Below are positions 1,010-32,217 of a stretch of DNA of 37,350 bases, one piece after another (within the stretch, counting starts at the first letter, position 1; the number at the start of each line of letters is the position of its first letter). The notes below the pieces were generated by a model. That model did not search any database. It was not told where the DNA came from and worked only from the letters and a program-made list of their open reading frames with translations. The stretch comes from a virus, in the IMG/VR virus record IMGVR_UViG_3300010885_030936, positions 1 through 37,350 of that record; one strand, 5' to 3'. The position numbers were made by a program, and so were the translations under genes.

Positions 1010-1240
1010 TTATTTCCATACCCCCGATATTTTGATGTATGGCGTTGCTTGCTTCCATACGCCAGAAACTTTAACAAACGGAATTGCAGCCTTCCAGACA
1101 CCAGATACTTTAATATAAAACTTTTTATTTTGATATTGAATTAAATCTGAATCAAATAAACCGCCTACTACCGTATCAGGATCAAACAGGCCGCCGATTT
1201 CTACATCAGGGTCAAACCAACCTGAACCAGTAGCCGCCAT
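1010..1240 (-). CDS. Small repeat protein of the fibre cluster
   Basis: This 76-residue protein is built of two repeat families. The N-terminal part has FDPD/FDSD units ending in G-G-L with a 10-residue period. The C-terminal part has three copies of K-[VI]-S-G-V-W-K with a 13-residue period, separated by A-x-P-[YF] segments. V-K-V-x-G-V-W-K repeats are common in phage tail-fibre and minor structural proteins, so an appendage or fibre-associated role is inferred. The DNA is AT-rich like the next gene. It lies directly between the 293-residue fibre-like gene and the AT-rich hypothetical gene, with which it is contiguous. Confidence 0.75.
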   Translation of the reverse strand: MAATGSGWFDPDVEIGGLFDPDTVVGGLFDSDLIQYQNKKFYIKVSGVWKAAIPFVKVSGVWKQATPYIKISGVWK

Positions 1241-21001: not shown

Positions 21002-21634
21002 TTAGCTCAAGTAAACAATTGGGGCTTTGGCTGCCGTAAATGTAGTCGGCGGCGTAATCGTGGCCGGAATCGTTCCGAAAGTTGCCGCCGTGATCGCGGA
21101 AGCGCAAATCTGATACGGGGCCGGAACGGTCTGCAAAGCGCCTGCGGTTGTGCCGCTACCCTGAACCGCAATGAAATACTGTTGCGGGCCGTAGAGCTGA
21201 ACCTGCGTTGCTGACAGGCCGGCGGTTGACGCGGTCAGGCCGCTTGCCGGATAGACCAGCGCCAGCGGTTGGGTCTGCCAAGTGTTCGCGGTGGCGAGCA
21301 ACTGACCGGCCAGAGCGGTTGAGGCAATCAAGCGACCGTATGAGTCGTAAATCGCGGCAAGCCAATTGTCCGTCGTGGCGGTGCCGCCCGACAGGATGCT
21401 GATGTTTTTCACGATCCGGTTGTAGGGAACCAAAATATCGGTTGTCCACAACTGGACGATATCGGTCGTATTGGTGCCAATGCTAGCAAGCGCGACGGAA
21501 CCGATGGGGATATTTGAGCAGATAAGCTGCCCGCCAGCCACGTTAAGCTGACCGTTGACGCCAATGCCGGCGACGAAGTTATCTTCGGTTTGGTTGCCGA
21601 CTTTTTGACGCTGTTGCAAGTATCCGAGTGCCAT
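21002..21634 (-). CDS. Structural protein, beta-rich
   Basis: This 210-residue protein is rich in Ala, Thr, Gly and Ile. Its segment L-W-T-T-D-I-L-V-P-Y-N-R-I-V-K-N-I-S-I-L is followed by W-L-A-A-I-Y-D-S-Y-G-R-L, a strand pattern common in small phage head proteins. It is probably a virion protein, paired with the neighbouring 199-residue gene. The promoter-distal flank carries the cluster of mini-genes that separates it from the portal. Confidence 0.74.
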   Translation of the reverse strand: MALGYLQQRQKVGNQTEDNFVAGIGVNGQLNVAGGQLICSNIPIGSVALASIGTNTTDIVQLWTTDILVPYNRIVKNISILSGGTATTDNWLAAIYDSYGRLIASTALAGQLLATANTWQTQPLALVYPASGLTASTAGLSATQVQLYGPQQYFIAVQGSGTTAGALQTVPAPYQICASAITAATFGTIPATITPPTTFTAAKAPIVYLS

Positions 21635-21744
21635 TAGATTCTCCGTCAGTAATTGCTTACTTTACTGATAAACAGCTTGTATTAAAAACGTGTTTTTCAG
21701 CAAAGTCAAATAATGTTCGATGCTGACGGGCATCGAGGGCGGTA

Positions 21745-21789
21745 TTACCGCTTGCTTTTACGCTTTGCGCGCATGTGTTTGCGGGCCAT
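21745..21789 (-). CDS. Mini-gene for 14-residue Arg/Lys-rich peptide (second copy)
   Basis: The frame ATG (21787..21789) to TAA (21745..21747) encodes MARKHMRAKRKSKR. Eight of its 14 residues are Arg or Lys. It has an excellent AGGAGA ribosome-binding site, and the start context AGGAGAAGATTATGGCCCGC nearly duplicates that of the first copy at 21853..21897. Aligned without gaps, the two peptides share 9 of 14 residues plus two R/K exchanges, so they are paralogues. A peptide this basic would bind nucleic acid or an acidic protein surface. Being between portal and head genes, a packaging-related or coat-associated role is the first hypothesis. It is too short for usual gene finders. Confidence 0.65.
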   Translation of the reverse strand: MARKHMRAKRKSKR

Positions 21790-21852
21790 AATCTTCTCCT
21801 GGGCTTGGATTGAGAATGGGCGCTGACGCACCCAACCATCGGACGAATCCGA

Positions 21853-21897
21853 TTACTTCTTGGAAGCGCGTTTAGCGCGGCGCGAACGGCGGGCCAT
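21853..21897 (-). CDS. Mini-gene for 14-residue Arg/Lys-rich peptide (first copy)
   Basis: The frame ATG (21895..21897) to TAA (21853..21855) encodes MARRSRRAKRASKK, with nine basic residues of 14. A TAAGGAG Shine-Dalgarno sequence sits 6 nt before the ATG, stronger than for many larger genes here. It is the paralogue of the mini-gene at 21745..21789, with the same length, the same start context and shared M-A-R and R-A-K-R motifs. The pattern of ribosome-binding site, short frame and repeated copy argues for translation. Function is unknown; basic peptides such as microvirus protein J show that tiny packaged DNA-binding proteins exist in phages, but no homology is claimed. Confidence 0.65.
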   Translation of the reverse strand: MARRSRRAKRASKK

Positions 21898-21907
21898 AAT
21901 CATCTCC

Positions 21908-21946
21908 TTAGTCGAAGCGGCCACGTTTTAAAGGGAACACAGCCAT
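21908..21946 (-). CDS. Possible leader mini-ORF (12 codons)
   Basis: The frame ATG (21944..21946) to TAA (21908..21910) encodes MAVFPLKRGRFD. The TAA is part of the TAAGGAG ribosome-binding site of the next mini-gene, so translation would be tightly coupled. There is no well-placed Shine-Dalgarno sequence of its own (an AGGG is only 1 nt from the ATG), which makes translation doubtful. It could be an attenuator-like leader or chance. Confidence 0.25.
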   Translation of the reverse strand: MAVFPLKRGRFD

Positions 21947-21989
21947 ACCCTGTGCGAATTTTTACACCAATCTTTTGCCAATTTCAAAT

Positions 21990-23621
21990 TTATTTTGCAG
22001 CATTGCCCGCCGCCTCCGATTGAGCCTCAGCCTGCTTCGCCTTTTGCTCCGCAGCCTCCATCAGCTTTAGTTTCCGCAGCAATAGGTCTTTCATCGGCGG
22101 GTCAATCATTTCAATGAACGATTCGCGGTCGATTGCGTGAGCCTCCAGCAGCTCGGCAGCCAACTGTTTGTGATCTTCCGAGAACAGCGGGGAATTGCTG
22201 TGCGAATCCACTTTCACGACGTAATCTGACGTGAATTGCGAGGGAATAAACGGATTACCCTTTGCGTCTTTCAAGTCGTTGGTGTCGTGTTTTTGCATGA
22301 CCTTGAGATAAAGCGTAGCGATTTTTTCCAAAGCATCTTCAACCACCAGCGCCCGCTTCTTGATTCGAGCCGATCCAAGCCGCGCCAGCTCAGAGGTCTG
22401 CCGGCCAGAGCGAACTCCGGACTCGCCTTTGCCCATCATAATGTTTTGCAGGCCGCTGCGCTCCGAGAACATCGCGTCAATTTCGTGGATGACGGCAAAA
22501 AGATCGGGGGGAATGTCCGGCTTATGGCGATCCACTTTGCCTTGCATGGAATCCGTGACGAGCAAACCGCCTGGACGATTCAATGCAAAATTCTTTTCGT
22601 CAACCAAGCCCATCCAGCCGGTCAACGATGTTGGGGGATCAACATTCAGATCGAGCAATTCCTTGACCTGCAAAACGCGCTGATTGCGCCACTTTTGCAA
22701 GCCCACCAAGCCGCTGACTTCTGACATGCCCCAAAAGTACGAGTACATCGGATTCGGGCAAATCTGAACAAACGGCACCTCGCCCTTGATAAAGAAATTC
22801 ATTCGGTCGTAAATCGTGACCGAGTTTGAGGCTCTTGTTACGACGCGGTAATCGCCGCCATCAGTATCCCACACCCAAAGTTCCTGCATCTCAACCAAGT
22901 CCTCCGCGACTCTCGGCATGTAGTCAACATTCGCGTTGAGAGGAACTTGCGCGTTACCTTGCATCGTCGGCGTAGATGCGGACAATATGATGCGATCAAC
23001 ACCGGTCGGATCGGACTCTTTGTTGGTGCGCGGAAATGCGTCAAGGTTGGCAAGAATTTGCTCGCGCTGCGGATGCTTTGCCAAATCCACTTCCAGCTGC
23101 GACTTGGTTGTGTAGTAGGAATGGCACATTGCCTCTTGGCGATCCAAGTAAGGAATATCCTCCCGCAATACGCCGAACGAGCCCGGGTCAATAATGAACG
23201 GATCAATTCCCTGCAAACCTTTTTCGTTGGCGCGAACGATAATTTTAAAGATCATCGTGTTGTAGACCAGCGACCAGATCAAGCCTTGCCCAAAAGTCTG
23301 GTCACCGTTTGACATGAGCCACTGGTCGTTGACGGCGCGGTTGATTGCATTGAGGCGCAGGTATTCGTGGCCTGGAATGTGCGGCCCTAAATGCGTCGTG
23401 AATTTTGTTGTCTCGGACGCAAACAGAAACGCAGTCAGCATGTCGATGTGCGGAAAGATTTTGTTGTATGGCGTTTCCGGCTCGTCCGGCCCGCGACCGA
23501 ACAGGAAGAAATGCCGATTGCTGCCGTAGTCAATCCGGCGGTCGTCCTGGGATTTTGTGCACTTGTCGATCAGCTCTTGGTAGAACATATCGCGCTGCTG
23601 CATGTCTTTTGGGATTTTCAT
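21990..23621 (-). CDS. Portal protein
   Basis: This 543-residue protein would form the dodecameric DNA gateway at the head vertex. It starts MKIPKDMQQRDM and has a mixed alpha/beta N-terminal domain (P-Y-N-K-I-F-P-H-I-D-M-L-T-A-F-L-F), long stem-like helices and a C-terminal region (about 400-540) with V-R-S-G-R-Q-T-S-E-L-A-R-L. The tail is Gln/Ala/Glu-rich (Q-K-A-K-Q-A-E-A-Q-S-E-A-A). The size, the place directly downstream of the terminase block and the pattern fit podovirus-type portal proteins. It is preceded by the zinc-ribbon-like gene with a 3-bp gap. Confidence 0.85.
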   Translation of the reverse strand: MKIPKDMQQRDMFYQELIDKCTKSQDDRRIDYGSNRHFFLFGRGPDEPETPYNKIFPHIDMLTAFLFASETTKFTTHLGPHIPGHEYLRLNAINRAVNDQWLMSNGDQTFGQGLIWSLVYNTMIFKIIVRANEKGLQGIDPFIIDPGSFGVLREDIPYLDRQEAMCHSYYTTKSQLEVDLAKHPQREQILANLDAFPRTNKESDPTGVDRIILSASTPTMQGNAQVPLNANVDYMPRVAEDLVEMQELWVWDTDGGDYRVVTRASNSVTIYDRMNFFIKGEVPFVQICPNPMYSYFWGMSEVSGLVGLQKWRNQRVLQVKELLDLNVDPPTSLTGWMGLVDEKNFALNRPGGLLVTDSMQGKVDRHKPDIPPDLFAVIHEIDAMFSERSGLQNIMMGKGESGVRSGRQTSELARLGSARIKKRALVVEDALEKIATLYLKVMQKHDTNDLKDAKGNPFIPSQFTSDYVVKVDSHSNSPLFSEDHKQLAAELLEAHAIDRESFIEMIDPPMKDLLLRKLKLMEAAEQKAKQAEAQSEAAGNAAK

Positions 23622-24728: not shown

Positions 24729-26498
24729 TTACGCCGCAATCCCAAGACTCTTGAGGAATCCGGCCACACTGTTCGCGTCCTTGTTCTCGCCCTGCGCGTC
24801 ACGCGCATGCCCCTGCTGGCGCGTCATGCCCTGCTGAACCATTCGCATACGGACAAAGTCTGCCCACGCCACATGGGCCAATGCGGCAGCCACAACCCTA
24901 TCGTCCTTGCCTCTACCCGGCGCGCCGAGCATCCCGTCATCCCGAATGACGTTCTTCATTTCGTCAATCATCTCGCGTGACTTAACCAACGAAATTCCGC
25001 GCTCAAAGCAATCTTTGATTAAGTTGAACATGCGCTCTTTGGTGTCGCCGGTCGTTTTCCAATGATAGGCCGACGGCGCACCCATACTGTCCAATCGCTT
25101 GTACAGGTAATTCTGAATGTTCGCGATTACCGAATACAGTCGAGCCCCGCCCTCTCCGGGCTGATTGACGGCGGTGCGTTTCAAGTTTTGGATTTCTTGC
25201 CAAACGGCTTGACCCGGGCCGTTAATTTCCAAGTTAAGCATGACAGACCCGCCGCCATTCAAGTAGCTGGCCGCCAGATAGATCATCACCCAAGCAAACT
25301 GGAACGTGGAGCAGTCTGGCGTACAAAACTCGGCCACTTGCTCCATGCCGTCGGCGTAACATCGCCATACCGACACGCAGAACCTATCGGCCCAATCGGA
25401 GGAGCCGTAGGCTGGATCGGCACCGATGACGTAGTGGCCTTGTGACTTGGGGAATTCCCATATTTTGAGGTTTCCATTCTTTTCGCCGCACTCCAAAATG
25501 TCCGTATCCTCGAAAGCCTCTCGCAAGACAAAACGGTAATTGTGGAAATCGAACTTCGACGCTCGCTTGTATTCGTCGTTAATCCGCGCCGCGTTGAAGA
25601 ACTGGCTGCCCGACAAGACGAAAGCATAGTCCTCGGTCGGCGGGTAATTCTGCATGTGTAGGGTTTCGTCCCGCGACTTCTCGGCCATCGCCCAACGCCA
25701 CCAGGCGATCTGCTCGTCATCCACGTCGAAGTCGTAGAGCTGCTTGACCTCGCGCACCCATTTCTTTTCTTCGGGTTGCAGCCGGCCATCCCAATACACT
25801 TGGTACTCGATGCTGCCTTTTTTCTTGCGGTAGAACTGATTGCGCCACCAGCCGATAAAGATCGCTTTCTTGACGCGGCTGGCTTTAGCATCCTCCCACA
25901 TATCGAAGAAGGCGTTATACCCCTGCGCCGTGGTTTCCCACACAAAGAGCCGGTTTGGATTTTGCTCGGCAAGCGACGCCTCTAGTGAAGCGAGTCCTTC
26001 CTCATCTCCGTATTCAGAGCACTCTGTAGCATGCAGGAATGTGAGAGCCTTGCCTTTGCCCAACTTGGTGTTTTTTCGTGTACCTGCAACTTGATACGCA
26101 AATCTCGACCTATTTTTGAGGGTAAGCTGACTCCGGTTATGTGTGACAAGTGGTCGCTTAAATTCATTTGGCAGCCCGTCCATATACATCGCAAGGGTTG
26201 ATCGGAACATATCCCGGGTTTCTTCGTCGTGCGTCACCATCGAACCGGACATGCCGCTGTGTTTAAACATCCAATACAGATCGAGCGCCAAAGAGATTGT
26301 TGTAATCCCCAACTGCCGGCCCTTCAAGACAACAAAAGTATGGATGCCTTCCTCCAGACCCTTCGCCACCTCTTCGATAAAATACTTCTGCGTTCCCATC
26401 AACGTCTTGGGGTTTAACGTCGTCAGGCCCAACTCTTTGGTATCGACCTGCAACGCCGAACAGAACTTCCAAAAGTTTTGCAGATTGAAGTCGCTCAC
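24729..26498 (-). CDS. terL: Terminase large subunit (packaging ATPase/nuclease)
   Basis: This motor packages DNA into the prohead. The frame is open to 26567, but the start is taken as GTG at 26496..26498, because GAGG lies 7 nt upstream and the preceding gene ends just before (26503). The product is 589 residues. Near residues 56-66 V-V-L-K-G-R-Q-L-G-I-T is the Walker A-like motif of phage terminases, and L-T-F-L-H-A-T-E-C-S-E-Y-G-D supplies the Walker B/catalytic Glu region. V-I-G-A-D-P-A-Y-G begins the RNase H-like nuclease domain; a downstream K-D-D-R-V-V-A-A-A-L-A-H segment supplies the last acidic residues. The length is normal for the family. Confidence 0.93.
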   Translation of the reverse strand: MSDFNLQNFWKFCSALQVDTKELGLTTLNPKTLMGTQKYFIEEVAKGLEEGIHTFVVLKGRQLGITTISLALDLYWMFKHSGMSGSMVTHDEETRDMFRSTLAMYMDGLPNEFKRPLVTHNRSQLTLKNRSRFAYQVAGTRKNTKLGKGKALTFLHATECSEYGDEEGLASLEASLAEQNPNRLFVWETTAQGYNAFFDMWEDAKASRVKKAIFIGWWRNQFYRKKKGSIEYQVYWDGRLQPEEKKWVREVKQLYDFDVDDEQIAWWRWAMAEKSRDETLHMQNYPPTEDYAFVLSGSQFFNAARINDEYKRASKFDFHNYRFVLREAFEDTDILECGEKNGNLKIWEFPKSQGHYVIGADPAYGSSDWADRFCVSVWRCYADGMEQVAEFCTPDCSTFQFAWVMIYLAASYLNGGGSVMLNLEINGPGQAVWQEIQNLKRTAVNQPGEGGARLYSVIANIQNYLYKRLDSMGAPSAYHWKTTGDTKERMFNLIKDCFERGISLVKSREMIDEMKNVIRDDGMLGAPGRGKDDRVVAAALAHVAWADFVRMRMVQQGMTRQQGHARDAQGENKDANSVAGFLKSLGIAA

Positions 26499-28717: not shown

Positions 28718-29773
28718 ATGAACCCGAAACCCATCGACGTTACACCGCGACAGATGGCCGCAGACGTTGCCCTTGCCTTGCGCGACAACGTGCCCCGCTA
28801 CTACTGGGGCGCGCCCGGTATCGGAAAAACGCAAATCTTGCGCCAAGTAATCGAACGGGAAAACCGCAAATACTGCGACTTCCGCGCGATGATTCTCGAC
28901 TTGCCCGACCTTCAAGGCTATGCGATCCCGCAACTTATGCGCCCCGGCGAACCGTGCCCCATGACCGGCGCGCCCGGACTCCCGCCGCCCGACTCGCCCG
29001 ACGCTTGGGGTATCGTTTTTGAAGAATTGAACGGCGCCGCGCGCATGATGCAGGGCGCGCTTTATGGAACGATCTTAGAGCGTAACGGACTGCCGAAGGA
29101 CAATCGCGTATTCGCCACCGGCAACCCCGCCAGCGCGCGAGGCGTGAATAACGAAATGCCCGCCCCGCTGAAATCACGCTTCCGGCACTTTAATTTGATA
29201 CTTTGCCCGGATGAAACGCTGGCATACGCGCAGAGTGCCGGCTGGCACCCCTTTGTCACGGCATACCACACCATGACCGGCGGAAAGGAATGGAGCAGCT
29301 TTGACCCGAAAAGCCCCGAGGAAACGTACGCTTGCCCCCGTTCATGGGAAGATGTCAGTAAGACCCTTCATGCTGGCGCTATTCCGTCCGACCTGTTGAC
29401 CCCGACCATGTGCGGTAGCTTGGGGTACGGTATCGGTCAAAAATTCGCTGCTTTCTGCCGCTTGTGGAATGAACTGGCGCCGACGATCAACGAAATGCGG
29501 ACGGCGCCCGACGCTTGCCCTGTTCCCGACGACGCAGCAGCGCAATGGTTTTTGGCCGCGACAATCGCCGCGAATAAGGCCGAGGCAACCGCCAACCCCG
29601 CCGGATTTTCGGCTTGGGCAATACCTTTTCTTTGCCGCTTGCCGGATGAATTATGCGTTTTTGCAATGAACGCAGCAACCCGCCACACGCCGCAAATTGG
29701 ACGCACACCGGCATTTATCAAATCATTTGCCACAAACGCGCGCTATGCAGCTTTGGCGCAATTCTGCAAATAA
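28718..29773 (+). CDS. MoxR-type AAA+ ATPase
   Basis: This 351-residue AAA+ protein is of the MoxR/AAA_5 group. Walker A is G-A-P-G-I-G-K-T (31-38). The Walker B region is G-I-V-F-E-E-L (98-104), with Glu where most family members have Asp. Sensor 1 is F-A-T-G-N-P (132-137), and the L-K-S-R-F motif near 151-155 offers the arginine finger. MoxR ATPases usually remodel or activate a VWA-domain partner, and one with a metallopeptidase domain is encoded two genes downstream (30802..32217). AGGAGA lies 9 nt before the start. This is the motor of the module, expressed first from the early promoter. Confidence 0.88.
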   Translation: MNPKPIDVTPRQMAADVALALRDNVPRYYWGAPGIGKTQILRQVIERENRKYCDFRAMILDLPDLQGYAIPQLMRPGEPCPMTGAPGLPPPDSPDAWGIVFEELNGAARMMQGALYGTILERNGLPKDNRVFATGNPASARGVNNEMPAPLKSRFRHFNLILCPDETLAYAQSAGWHPFVTAYHTMTGGKEWSSFDPKSPEETYACPRSWEDVSKTLHAGAIPSDLLTPTMCGSLGYGIGQKFAAFCRLWNELAPTINEMRTAPDACPVPDDAAAQWFLAATIAANKAEATANPAGFSAWAIPFLCRLPDELCVFAMNAATRHTPQIGRTPAFIKSFATNARYAALAQFCK

Positions 29774-30801: not shown

Positions 30802-32217
30802 ATGACGACCAACACCAACATTTTGCAAGACCCGGCTTTCCGCGTATCAGCCGCGCGCTTGCGCTTGATGCAGGATAAAAATTGCGGACTGTTCGCGGAG
30901 ATAGGTTACGCGTTGACGCACACCGCAACCGACGCGCTCCCGACGATGGCGACGAACGGCGCCGCCGTGATGTACAACCCCGCCTATGTCGCCAGCGTAT
31001 CCGATGAAGAACTCGAAACCACGCTCCTGCACGAATACATCCACGTTTCCAACCTGCACCCGTTGCGCTTTGATCCGAAACGGCACAACCAACGACTTGC
31101 TAATGAAGCAATGGACTACGCTGATAATTTGCAGGTAGCCGCTTGCGGTCGAAAAATCCCCGACACTTGGTTATTCGATAAAAAGTATGACGGCATGGCA
31201 TGGGAGGCGATCTACACGATTTTGAAATCCGCACAGACGCCGCCGCCCCCGCCGCCGCAGCCCGAACCGGACGAACCGCGGCAAGGCGACGACCGGCCCG
31301 ACGAAGCAAATCAGGACGGCAGCGCAGACGCGCCGCAGGAAGGCGCAGACGACCCCCAGGACGACGAAGGCGGGCAGGATGATACCGACGCACCAGCCGC
31401 AGACGGCGAAGGCGAAGGCGAAGGCGAAGGCGAAGGCGAAGGCGAGGGCGAAGGCGAAGGCGAAGGCGAGGGCGAGGGCGACGGAAAGCCCGCACCGGGC
31501 AAAGCCGGCGACCGTAGCGGTGACGTTCAGCCCTTCCCTGGCAAAGACGGCCGGCCCGCCGACGACGCCGCGCGCGCCGCCGCCGAAAACGCGCTATCCG
31601 ATCAGATTATGCGGATTGCACAGGCGCAACAGATGGCCGGGCACGGCAGCGCAGGACTCGCCCGCTATCTTGAGAACGCGGTGACGCCGCGCGACCCGGA
31701 TTTATACGAAGCGCTAGCGCAACTGTTAGAACGCGCGCCGAACGATAGGACATGGCGCAAACCTTCGCGCCGCCTGTTCCACGCCGGCATTTATCCCGGC
31801 AACGAAGGCGAAGAATGTCCGCCACTGGTAATTGCAATCGACACATCCGGCAGCATCAACGATGCAATACTCGCCGCCTTTAACGAAAAAGTTAAGCGGG
31901 CAATCGCGGACTTCCGCCCGCGCGCAGTCACGATTATTTACTGCGACGACGACATAAACGGCGAACCGGAAACCTTCGCGCCCGACGATGTACCGACCCT
32001 CACCCCGCACGGCGGCGGCGGTACGGATTTTCGCCCGCCGTTTAATTGGGTACGTGATCACATGGACGAGCCGCCCGCCGCACTGGTTTATCTCACTGAC
32101 CTGGACGGCCCCGCACCCGCCGCCGACGCGCCCGAGTTTCCGACGATATGGGCCGCGATACCGAGCAGCTACGCCCGCCCTCCTGCGTTTGGTCAGATTG
32201 TGCCGCTGATCCTATGA
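30802..32217 (+). CDS. Metallopeptidase-VWA protein (DUF2201 type)
   Basis: This 471-residue protein has two domains joined by a low-complexity linker. The N-terminal domain holds L-L-H-E-Y-I-H (HExxH at 77-81) with N-E-A-M-D-Y-A-D downstream (101-108), the zinc-metallopeptidase layout of the DUF2201 N-terminal family. The linker is acidic and contains a pure Gly-Glu run. The C-terminal VWA domain carries D-T-S-G-S (347-351), the MIDAS metal site, and G-G-G-T-D-F for the conserved threonine. In MoxR-VWA pairs the ATPase loads or remodels the VWA protein. Here the VWA also has a possible protease, so it could be an ATP-regulated peptidase acting on host or phage proteins. Confidence 0.88.
   Translation: MTTNTNILQDPAFRVSAARLRLMQDKNCGLFAEIGYALTHTATDALPTMATNGAAVMYNPAYVASVSDEELETTLLHEYIHVSNLHPLRFDPKRHNQRLANEAMDYADNLQVAACGRKIPDTWLFDKKYDGMAWEAIYTILKSAQTPPPPPPQPEPDEPRQGDDRPDEANQDGSADAPQEGADDPQDDEGGQDDTDAPAADGEGEGEGEGEGEGEGEGEGEGEGEGDGKPAPGKAGDRSGDVQPFPGKDGRPADDAARAAAENALSDQIMRIAQAQQMAGHGSAGLARYLENAVTPRDPDLYEALAQLLERAPNDRTWRKPSRRLFHAGIYPGNEGEECPPLVIAIDTSGSINDAILAAFNEKVKRAIADFRPRAVTIIYCDDDINGEPETFAPDDVPTLTPHGGGGTDFRPPFNWVRDHMDEPPAALVYLTDLDGPAPAADAPEFPTIWAAIPSSYARPPAFGQIVPLIL
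31405..31476 (+). repeat. Twelve tandem GGCGAR hexamers (Gly-Glu repeat)
   Basis: This is an uninterrupted array of GGCGAA/GGCGAG units inside the linker of the metallopeptidase-VWA gene, coding for (Gly-Glu)12 and followed by a GGCGAC (Gly-Asp) unit. Replication slippage would add or remove two residues without breaking the frame, so linker length could vary between relatives. Confidence 0.93.

Follow-up and report, generated by a model that had tools for sequence, protein, structure and literature searches.

Conserved mini-genes for polycationic peptides and an associated RNA pseudoknot behind the portal gene of an uncultured phage family

Results

Two mini-genes behind the portal gene

The window analysed here is the whole stretch of 37,350 nucleotides, positions 1 to 37,350 of IMG/VR record IMGVR_UViG_3300010885_030936. 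On the evidence of its SU10-type portal and adaptor, the virus is probably a podovirus; it also encodes RecT and a recombinase of the YqaJ type. From the portal gene onwards, the following features were found in the order of transcription:

21990..23621, minus strand: portal protein of the SU10_portal type (Pfam PF23899, E=1.9e-10; PHROG portal), the conserved upstream neighbour of the mini-genes
21919..21951, minus strand: H-type RNA pseudoknot before mini-gene B (covariation in 50 relatives; covariance model)
21904..21909, minus strand: Shine-Dalgarno sequence AAGGAG of mini-gene B (from sequence)
21853..21897, minus strand: mini-gene B, 14 codons plus stop, MARRSRRAKRASKK; class B is conserved in relatives
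21838..21853, minus strand: hairpin with a UUCG loop directly 3' of mini-gene B (from folding)
21818..21833, minus strand: second hairpin, GGGUGC...GCGCCC, between B and A (from sequence)
21796..21800, minus strand: Shine-Dalgarno sequence AGGAG of mini-gene A (from sequence)
21745..21789, minus strand: mini-gene A, 14 codons plus stop, MARKHMRAKRKSKR; class A is conserved in relatives
21717..21736, minus strand: hairpin 3' of mini-gene A (from folding)
21681..21709, minus strand: sigma-70-like promoter TTGACT-17-TTTAAT, located after mini-gene A and before the structural gene that follows (consensus match only)

The original prediction for this locus was of two frames of 15 codons, stop included, with strong ribosome-binding sites and related basic products, and this description holds: the frames run on the minus strand from 21897 to 21853 and from 21789 to 21745, the Shine-Dalgarno sequences AAGGAG (B) and AGGAG (A) stand at a spacing of 6-7 nt, and the peptides MARRSRRAKRASKK and MARKHMRAKRKSKR are identical at 9 of 14 positions in an ungapped comparison. 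The Shine-Dalgarno energies are -9.1 kcal/mol for B and -7.4 kcal/mol for A, compared with -7.4 kcal/mol for the major capsid gene. The start context AGGAGA-GATTATGGCCCGC, which had been put forward as common to both frames, is present in this genome and its near relatives, but is not general beyond them. When the 37 kb of the window were scanned for ORFs of 8-26 aa that are led by a Shine-Dalgarno sequence and contain at least 35% K/R, A and B were the only ATG-started candidates. The RNA 3' of the mini-ORFs folds better than shuffled sequence (mean z -1.46, as opposed to -0.13 in the control), and the promoter-like site at 21681..21709, a consensus match only, is kept in four relatives (L001, L004, L006 and L018).

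Occurrence in relatives

Relatives were fetched by their portal, which yielded 54 loci at first, 80 when 15 aligned portals were used, and nine from bacterial and archaeal assemblies; removal of near-copies left 69 non-redundant post-portal regions whose portals are mostly about 50% identical. A search of these regions for short frames behind the portal, as had been proposed, recovered a conserved frame, Shine-Dalgarno sequence, ATG and stop. With mini-ORFs defined as Shine-Dalgarno-led frames that span 8-22 codons, contain 45% or more Lys+Arg and lie no more than 450 nt from the portal stop, one or more occur in 61 of the 69 regions and two or more in 40, giving 103 in total. A chance origin is ruled out by dinucleotide shuffles of the whole set, in which 20 rounds produced 2 such ORFs in all (an expectation of about 0.1 against 103). 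Among 1884 other 450-nt windows used as a control there were three, and one of these, in L061, is a genuine member that was moved downstream by an inserted gene. Four loci (L012, L061, L063 and L138) were scored as having none, yet a mini-ORF is present in them when the search covers a wider stretch or applies a laxer composition limit.

A class B DNA pattern that is independent of the portal led back to the same place: among the matches listed, near-copies included, all 107 of the 107 loci whose upstream sequence is long enough have this portal 150-406 nt upstream, and ten further loci end at a contig edge. Overall, 79 distinct mini-gene peptides were found. A tblastn search with three portals against 50,697 phage records returned no cultured relative, and only two metagenomic genomes matched. 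In phage SU10, which has the same portal type, the next annotated gene begins 10 nt behind the portal and leaves no room there for mini-ORFs.

Two metagenomic relatives have GenBank entries. That conventional gene finders would miss such genes is borne out by one of these, MW202825, which has no CDS for them on their strand. We found no published description of these genes or of the RNA described below in a partial coverage of the literature, surveys of small phage genes being incompletely covered. As a separate observation, MW202825.1 carries a CDS at 25683-25943 (UOF82412.1; L056 7779-8039, minus strand) antisense to the mini-genes and the pseudoknot, which is probably a spurious gene call.

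Selection and composition

Among equal-length orthologs from the portal-fetched loci, pN/pS was 0.40 for class B peptides of 13 aa, 0.27 for those of 12 aa and 0.45 for class A peptides of 13 aa. Synonymous sites are nearly saturated in most of the sets. Weaker values of 0.75-0.79 came from the sets of 14 residues, in which subfamilies are mixed. Third codon positions are the most variable, in a set that was partly fetched by the class B pattern and is thus biased for B. The substitution pattern, on which the original prediction had hinged, therefore shows an excess of synonymous over non-synonymous change (pN/pS 0.27-0.45), and the peptides are under selection. Together with the conserved Shine-Dalgarno sequence, ATG and stop and with length variation that stays in frame, this lends strong support to separately translated basic peptides, such that the mini-genes are very likely translated.

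The peptides have a mean net charge of +7.7, consist of Lys and Arg to about 60%, contain 3 acidic residues in 1380 and have almost no hydrophobic residues. Their charge is kept while the length varies from 9 to 22 aa. Lys and Arg codons are mixed (CGT 439, CGC 407, AAA 510, AAG 411).

Two classes of peptides

The mini-genes fall into two classes. The typical class B peptide is MARKARKGRKxRK, with Lys at its end, and the typical class A peptide is MYKxxKRGRKTRR, with Arg at its end; in non-redundant loci the length varies by whole codons between 9 and 22, mostly 12-14. In the clade of the window, the order is B then A, or B alone, whereas in the larger clade it is A then B, or B alone. Each class occurs in both major clades, and A peptides of the window's clade resemble those of the other clade (MRKSHRAKRKSRR in L006, MRKSHKKSRKSRR in L142). 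The original prediction had A and B arise by tandem duplication. As a recent event, this is not supported, and it was rejected as a general account: A and B form two separate, ancient classes whose order is reversed between the main clades, and at 13 residues their peptides are too short to be traced to a common ancestor.

In the portal tree, class B appears on both sides of the midpoint root. Class B peptides are missing from eight of the 68 rows, of which four carry A without B (L050, L069, L084 and L085) and four carry neither (L030, L032, L143 and L146). The peptides are thus not universally essential. The eight rows require a single change, with moderate support for their unity (76/75).

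Two further ORFs were seen in this region. A divergent relative (L297, 1971-2057) has an A-like ORF of 28 codons, MPGPLPTPQRGGGGGVVRKRRKARRSKR, in which a Gly-rich stretch precedes the basic part. In L007, L011, L014, L020, L023 and L030, the portal stop is overlapped or abutted by an ORF of about 50 codons that shows a conserved DQPR...SYGR pattern; the A-B clade and the group without mini-genes have this ORF, and the window's clade lacks it.

A pseudoknot upstream of class B

Directly upstream of class B lies an RNA element that is absent from the original prediction. In the window it occupies 21951-21919 on the minus strand: stem 1 pairs AGGG (21951-21948) with CCCT (21935-21932), loop 1 is UAU (21947-21945), and stem 2 pairs GGCUGUGUU (21944-21936) with AACGUGGCC (21927-21919). 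The consensus of the element is GGG-UNU-GGCUGNNU-CCC-(A-rich)-ANNGUGGCC, in which a first stem of 3-5 bp and a second of 8-9 bp are interlaced as an H-type pseudoknot. From its end to the class B ATG there are 17-24 nt in nearly all cases and 15-26 nt at the widest.

Because a generic pseudoknot finder proved too permissive, with shuffles reaching a score of 22 in 36%, we relied on covariation counts and slid controls. In a MAFFT alignment of 50 elements, 10 of 13 pairs show changes on both sides; the sequences had been cut to the motif by eye, a choice that gives the stated register some advantage. Doubly changed cells number 74, as compared to 19.9 +/- 5.2 in shuffles and 5-24 when the partner is slid by 1-3 columns, and 89.9% of the cells are paired, against 77.6% after shuffling. 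Evidence that goes beyond this advantage comes from stems that are fully replaced, by GGUUUCUC/GAGAAACC in L072 and by UCCUGCUC/GAGUAGGG in L124. A covariance model finds the window copy at 21914-21952 (43.3 bits, E=1.1e-9), though the model alignment includes this copy. A second match in the window, at 24871-24899 inside the terminase gene (15.4 bits), was judged to be noise.

The element accompanies B rather than the portal. In L061, an ORF of 242 codons separates the portal from the pseudoknot and B. Also, a pattern for the pseudoknot only found, among the matches listed, a basic mini-ORF within 60 nt in 101 of 103 loci that the mini-gene pattern had not fetched (lower bounds, near-copies included). 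Among the 101 there are at least 45 different peptides, whereas the remaining two loci resemble chance matches. At the pseudoknot locus of L297 a divergent portal is present, its stop overlapping the element. No convincing pseudoknot was found in L026. In L062, a promoter-like site (consensus match only) lies directly upstream of the pseudoknot, which would place the element near the 5' end of the mRNA.

Within the element, stem 2 has a tandem U-G/G-U at its centre that is kept in 40-42 of the 50 copies, and the U-N-U of loop 1 is conserved. This conservation suggests that a ligand recognises these positions. The element was rejected as a member of a known RNA family: Rfam gave no match in the window at the gathering threshold and none at E<=1 in 21630-22000, and in six relatives only two chance-level matches, both outside the element.

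Discussion

The explanation that we favour, though with no better than even confidence, is that A and B encode polycationic, nucleic-acid-binding peptides of the head module and that the pseudoknot is a translational operator of B, possibly an autogenous one. The mini-genes of this uncultured family of podoviruses with SU10-type portals would thus specify separate peptides of 9-22 residues whose most likely function in head morphogenesis is the binding of nucleic acid, be it packaged DNA, for which they would act as counter-ions or condensers, or RNA, and the conserved pseudoknot would control the synthesis of peptide B. Nucleic-acid binding is likely in view of the composition of the peptides, and from the position of the genes we infer a role in head filling or assembly. 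The original suggestion of binding to packaged DNA, the portal or RNA is thus far plausible. In the most economical mechanism, the pseudoknot would be bound by the free, arginine-rich B peptide or by a partner, and initiation at the neighbouring Shine-Dalgarno sequence would be adjusted in this way.

The individual parts of this arrangement have precedents in basic packaging peptides and pseudoknot operators, and the combination matches no testable family. The J proteins of Microviridae and the small DNA-binding packaging proteins of gokushoviruses are short and very basic, are encoded among structural genes and are thought to neutralise the charge of DNA; proteins of the J type have about 25-40 residues and belong to ssDNA phages. 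The mini-gene products are likewise short, strongly basic and encoded in the capsid region, but they have 9-22 residues (mostly about 10-14), lengths of 9-14 being too short to judge homology or fold, and come in two classes, from a family of tailed phages, with an RNA pseudoknot. In the N proteins of lambda and P22, the arginine-rich motif is one domain of a larger antitermination protein and binds the boxB hairpin. These motifs are similar in size and likewise rich in Arg/Lys, and such peptides can bind structured RNA specifically; the ORFs described here, however, stop right after the basic stretch and have no antitermination domain.

For the RNA, the closest parallel is T4 gp32, which, like ribosomal protein S15, acts on a pseudoknot of its own mRNA (PMC3014915). 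The autoregulatory pseudoknot of gene 32 is found in T4, T2 and RB69 (PMC3014915, PMC535899), and in T4 the operator comprises a pseudoknot 67 nt upstream of the start and an unstructured A+U-rich tract with UUAAA repeats (PMC3014915). Here, too, the 5' leader contains an H-type pseudoknot supported by covariation, and the phage product is presumed to bind nucleic acid. The pseudoknot differs in that its sequence is another one, its end lies 17-24 nt from the start rather than 67 nt, no A+U-rich cooperative or UUAAA repeat tract lies between it and the ribosome-binding site, and the product has about 13 aa. Autogenous control of B through the pseudoknot may be envisaged by analogy with gp32 and S15.

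A narrower version, in which peptide B (about 13 residues) binds both the packaged DNA and the pseudoknot of its own leader, we consider doubtful. In such an autogenous circuit, unfilled heads would draw peptide B off, so that its translation stays on. If true, peptide B would rank with the smallest known gene products that regulate themselves, and this would be the second viral case of autocontrol by a pseudoknot besides the gene 32 of T4-type phages.

Somewhat less probable still is that the peptides are virion counter-ions only, packaged in bulk with the DNA like protamine or J, and that the pseudoknot is only an enhancer of translation or a stabiliser of the mRNA, without autogenous control. 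The position in the head module, the strong Shine-Dalgarno sequences and the maintenance of charge over 9-22 aa would all fit such a role, as would the closeness of the pseudoknot to the Shine-Dalgarno sequence, the hairpins behind the ORFs and the location near the mRNA 5' end that the promoter-like site of L062 implies. Against this, the tandem U-G/G-U and the U-N-U of loop 1 exceed the needs of stability, and SU10, with the same portal type, has no space behind its portal for mini-ORFs.

A riboswitch, or an operator for a host factor, that turns on peptide B late in infection would likewise account for a compact H-type pseudoknot with covarying stems and conserved unpaired positions 17-24 nt before the start. 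We regard this as rather improbable, given that Rfam has no match and that, among the matches listed, the element occurs only with this phage gene and never with a metabolic gene, bar the two chance-like matches.

It is also improbable, to a slightly greater degree, that the act of translation matters rather than its product; the mini-genes would then serve as leader peptides or as polybasic minigenes for stalling, with an effect on downstream capsid genes or on the stability of the mRNA. The bar minigenes of lambda and leader peptides are translated ORFs of a few codons that act via translation itself, and the ORFs here resemble them in being very short and followed by hairpins, with one weak terminator-like site behind A; in L062, moreover, the B cistron sits between the promoter-like site and the structural genes. 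In contrast to these systems, amino acids are conserved across a deep family at near-saturated synonymous sites. An attenuator leader would repeat one regulatory amino acid in fixed codons, with mutually exclusive hairpins and a terminator after it. A role as nascent chain or attenuator is not favoured either, since Arg and Lys codons are mixed and since the window's clade has a promoter-like site between the mini-genes and the next gene, ahead of the capsid genes. Lastly, host-directed peptides, whether inhibitors of host enzymes or ribosomes or membrane-active, seem very improbable: small phage proteins often target the host and the composition is strongly cationic, but there are hardly any hydrophobic residues for membrane insertion, the position is fixed in the head module and not among early genes, and two paired classes are retained together.

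In these viruses, a deep phage family keeps genes of 9-14 codons, near the lower size limit of translation and invisible to standard annotation, which are selected at the level of amino acids and have a dedicated structured RNA. The latter is a new RNA motif with strong covariation, and the locus offers a testable system for a short polycationic peptide in head assembly or RNA control. The space behind the portal genes of other phages suggests itself as a place to search.

Elsewhere in the window, at 30802-32217 and together with 28718-29773 (both plus strand), a putative metallopeptidase plus VWA-like protein (DUF2201_N/DUF2201) that has a long Glu-Gly repeat is found near an ATPase-like ORF, which resembles a phage-borne pair of the MoxR/VWA type. 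Near the end of the structural region, at 1010-1240 (minus strand), a short protein carries repeated K(V/I)SGVWK motifs.
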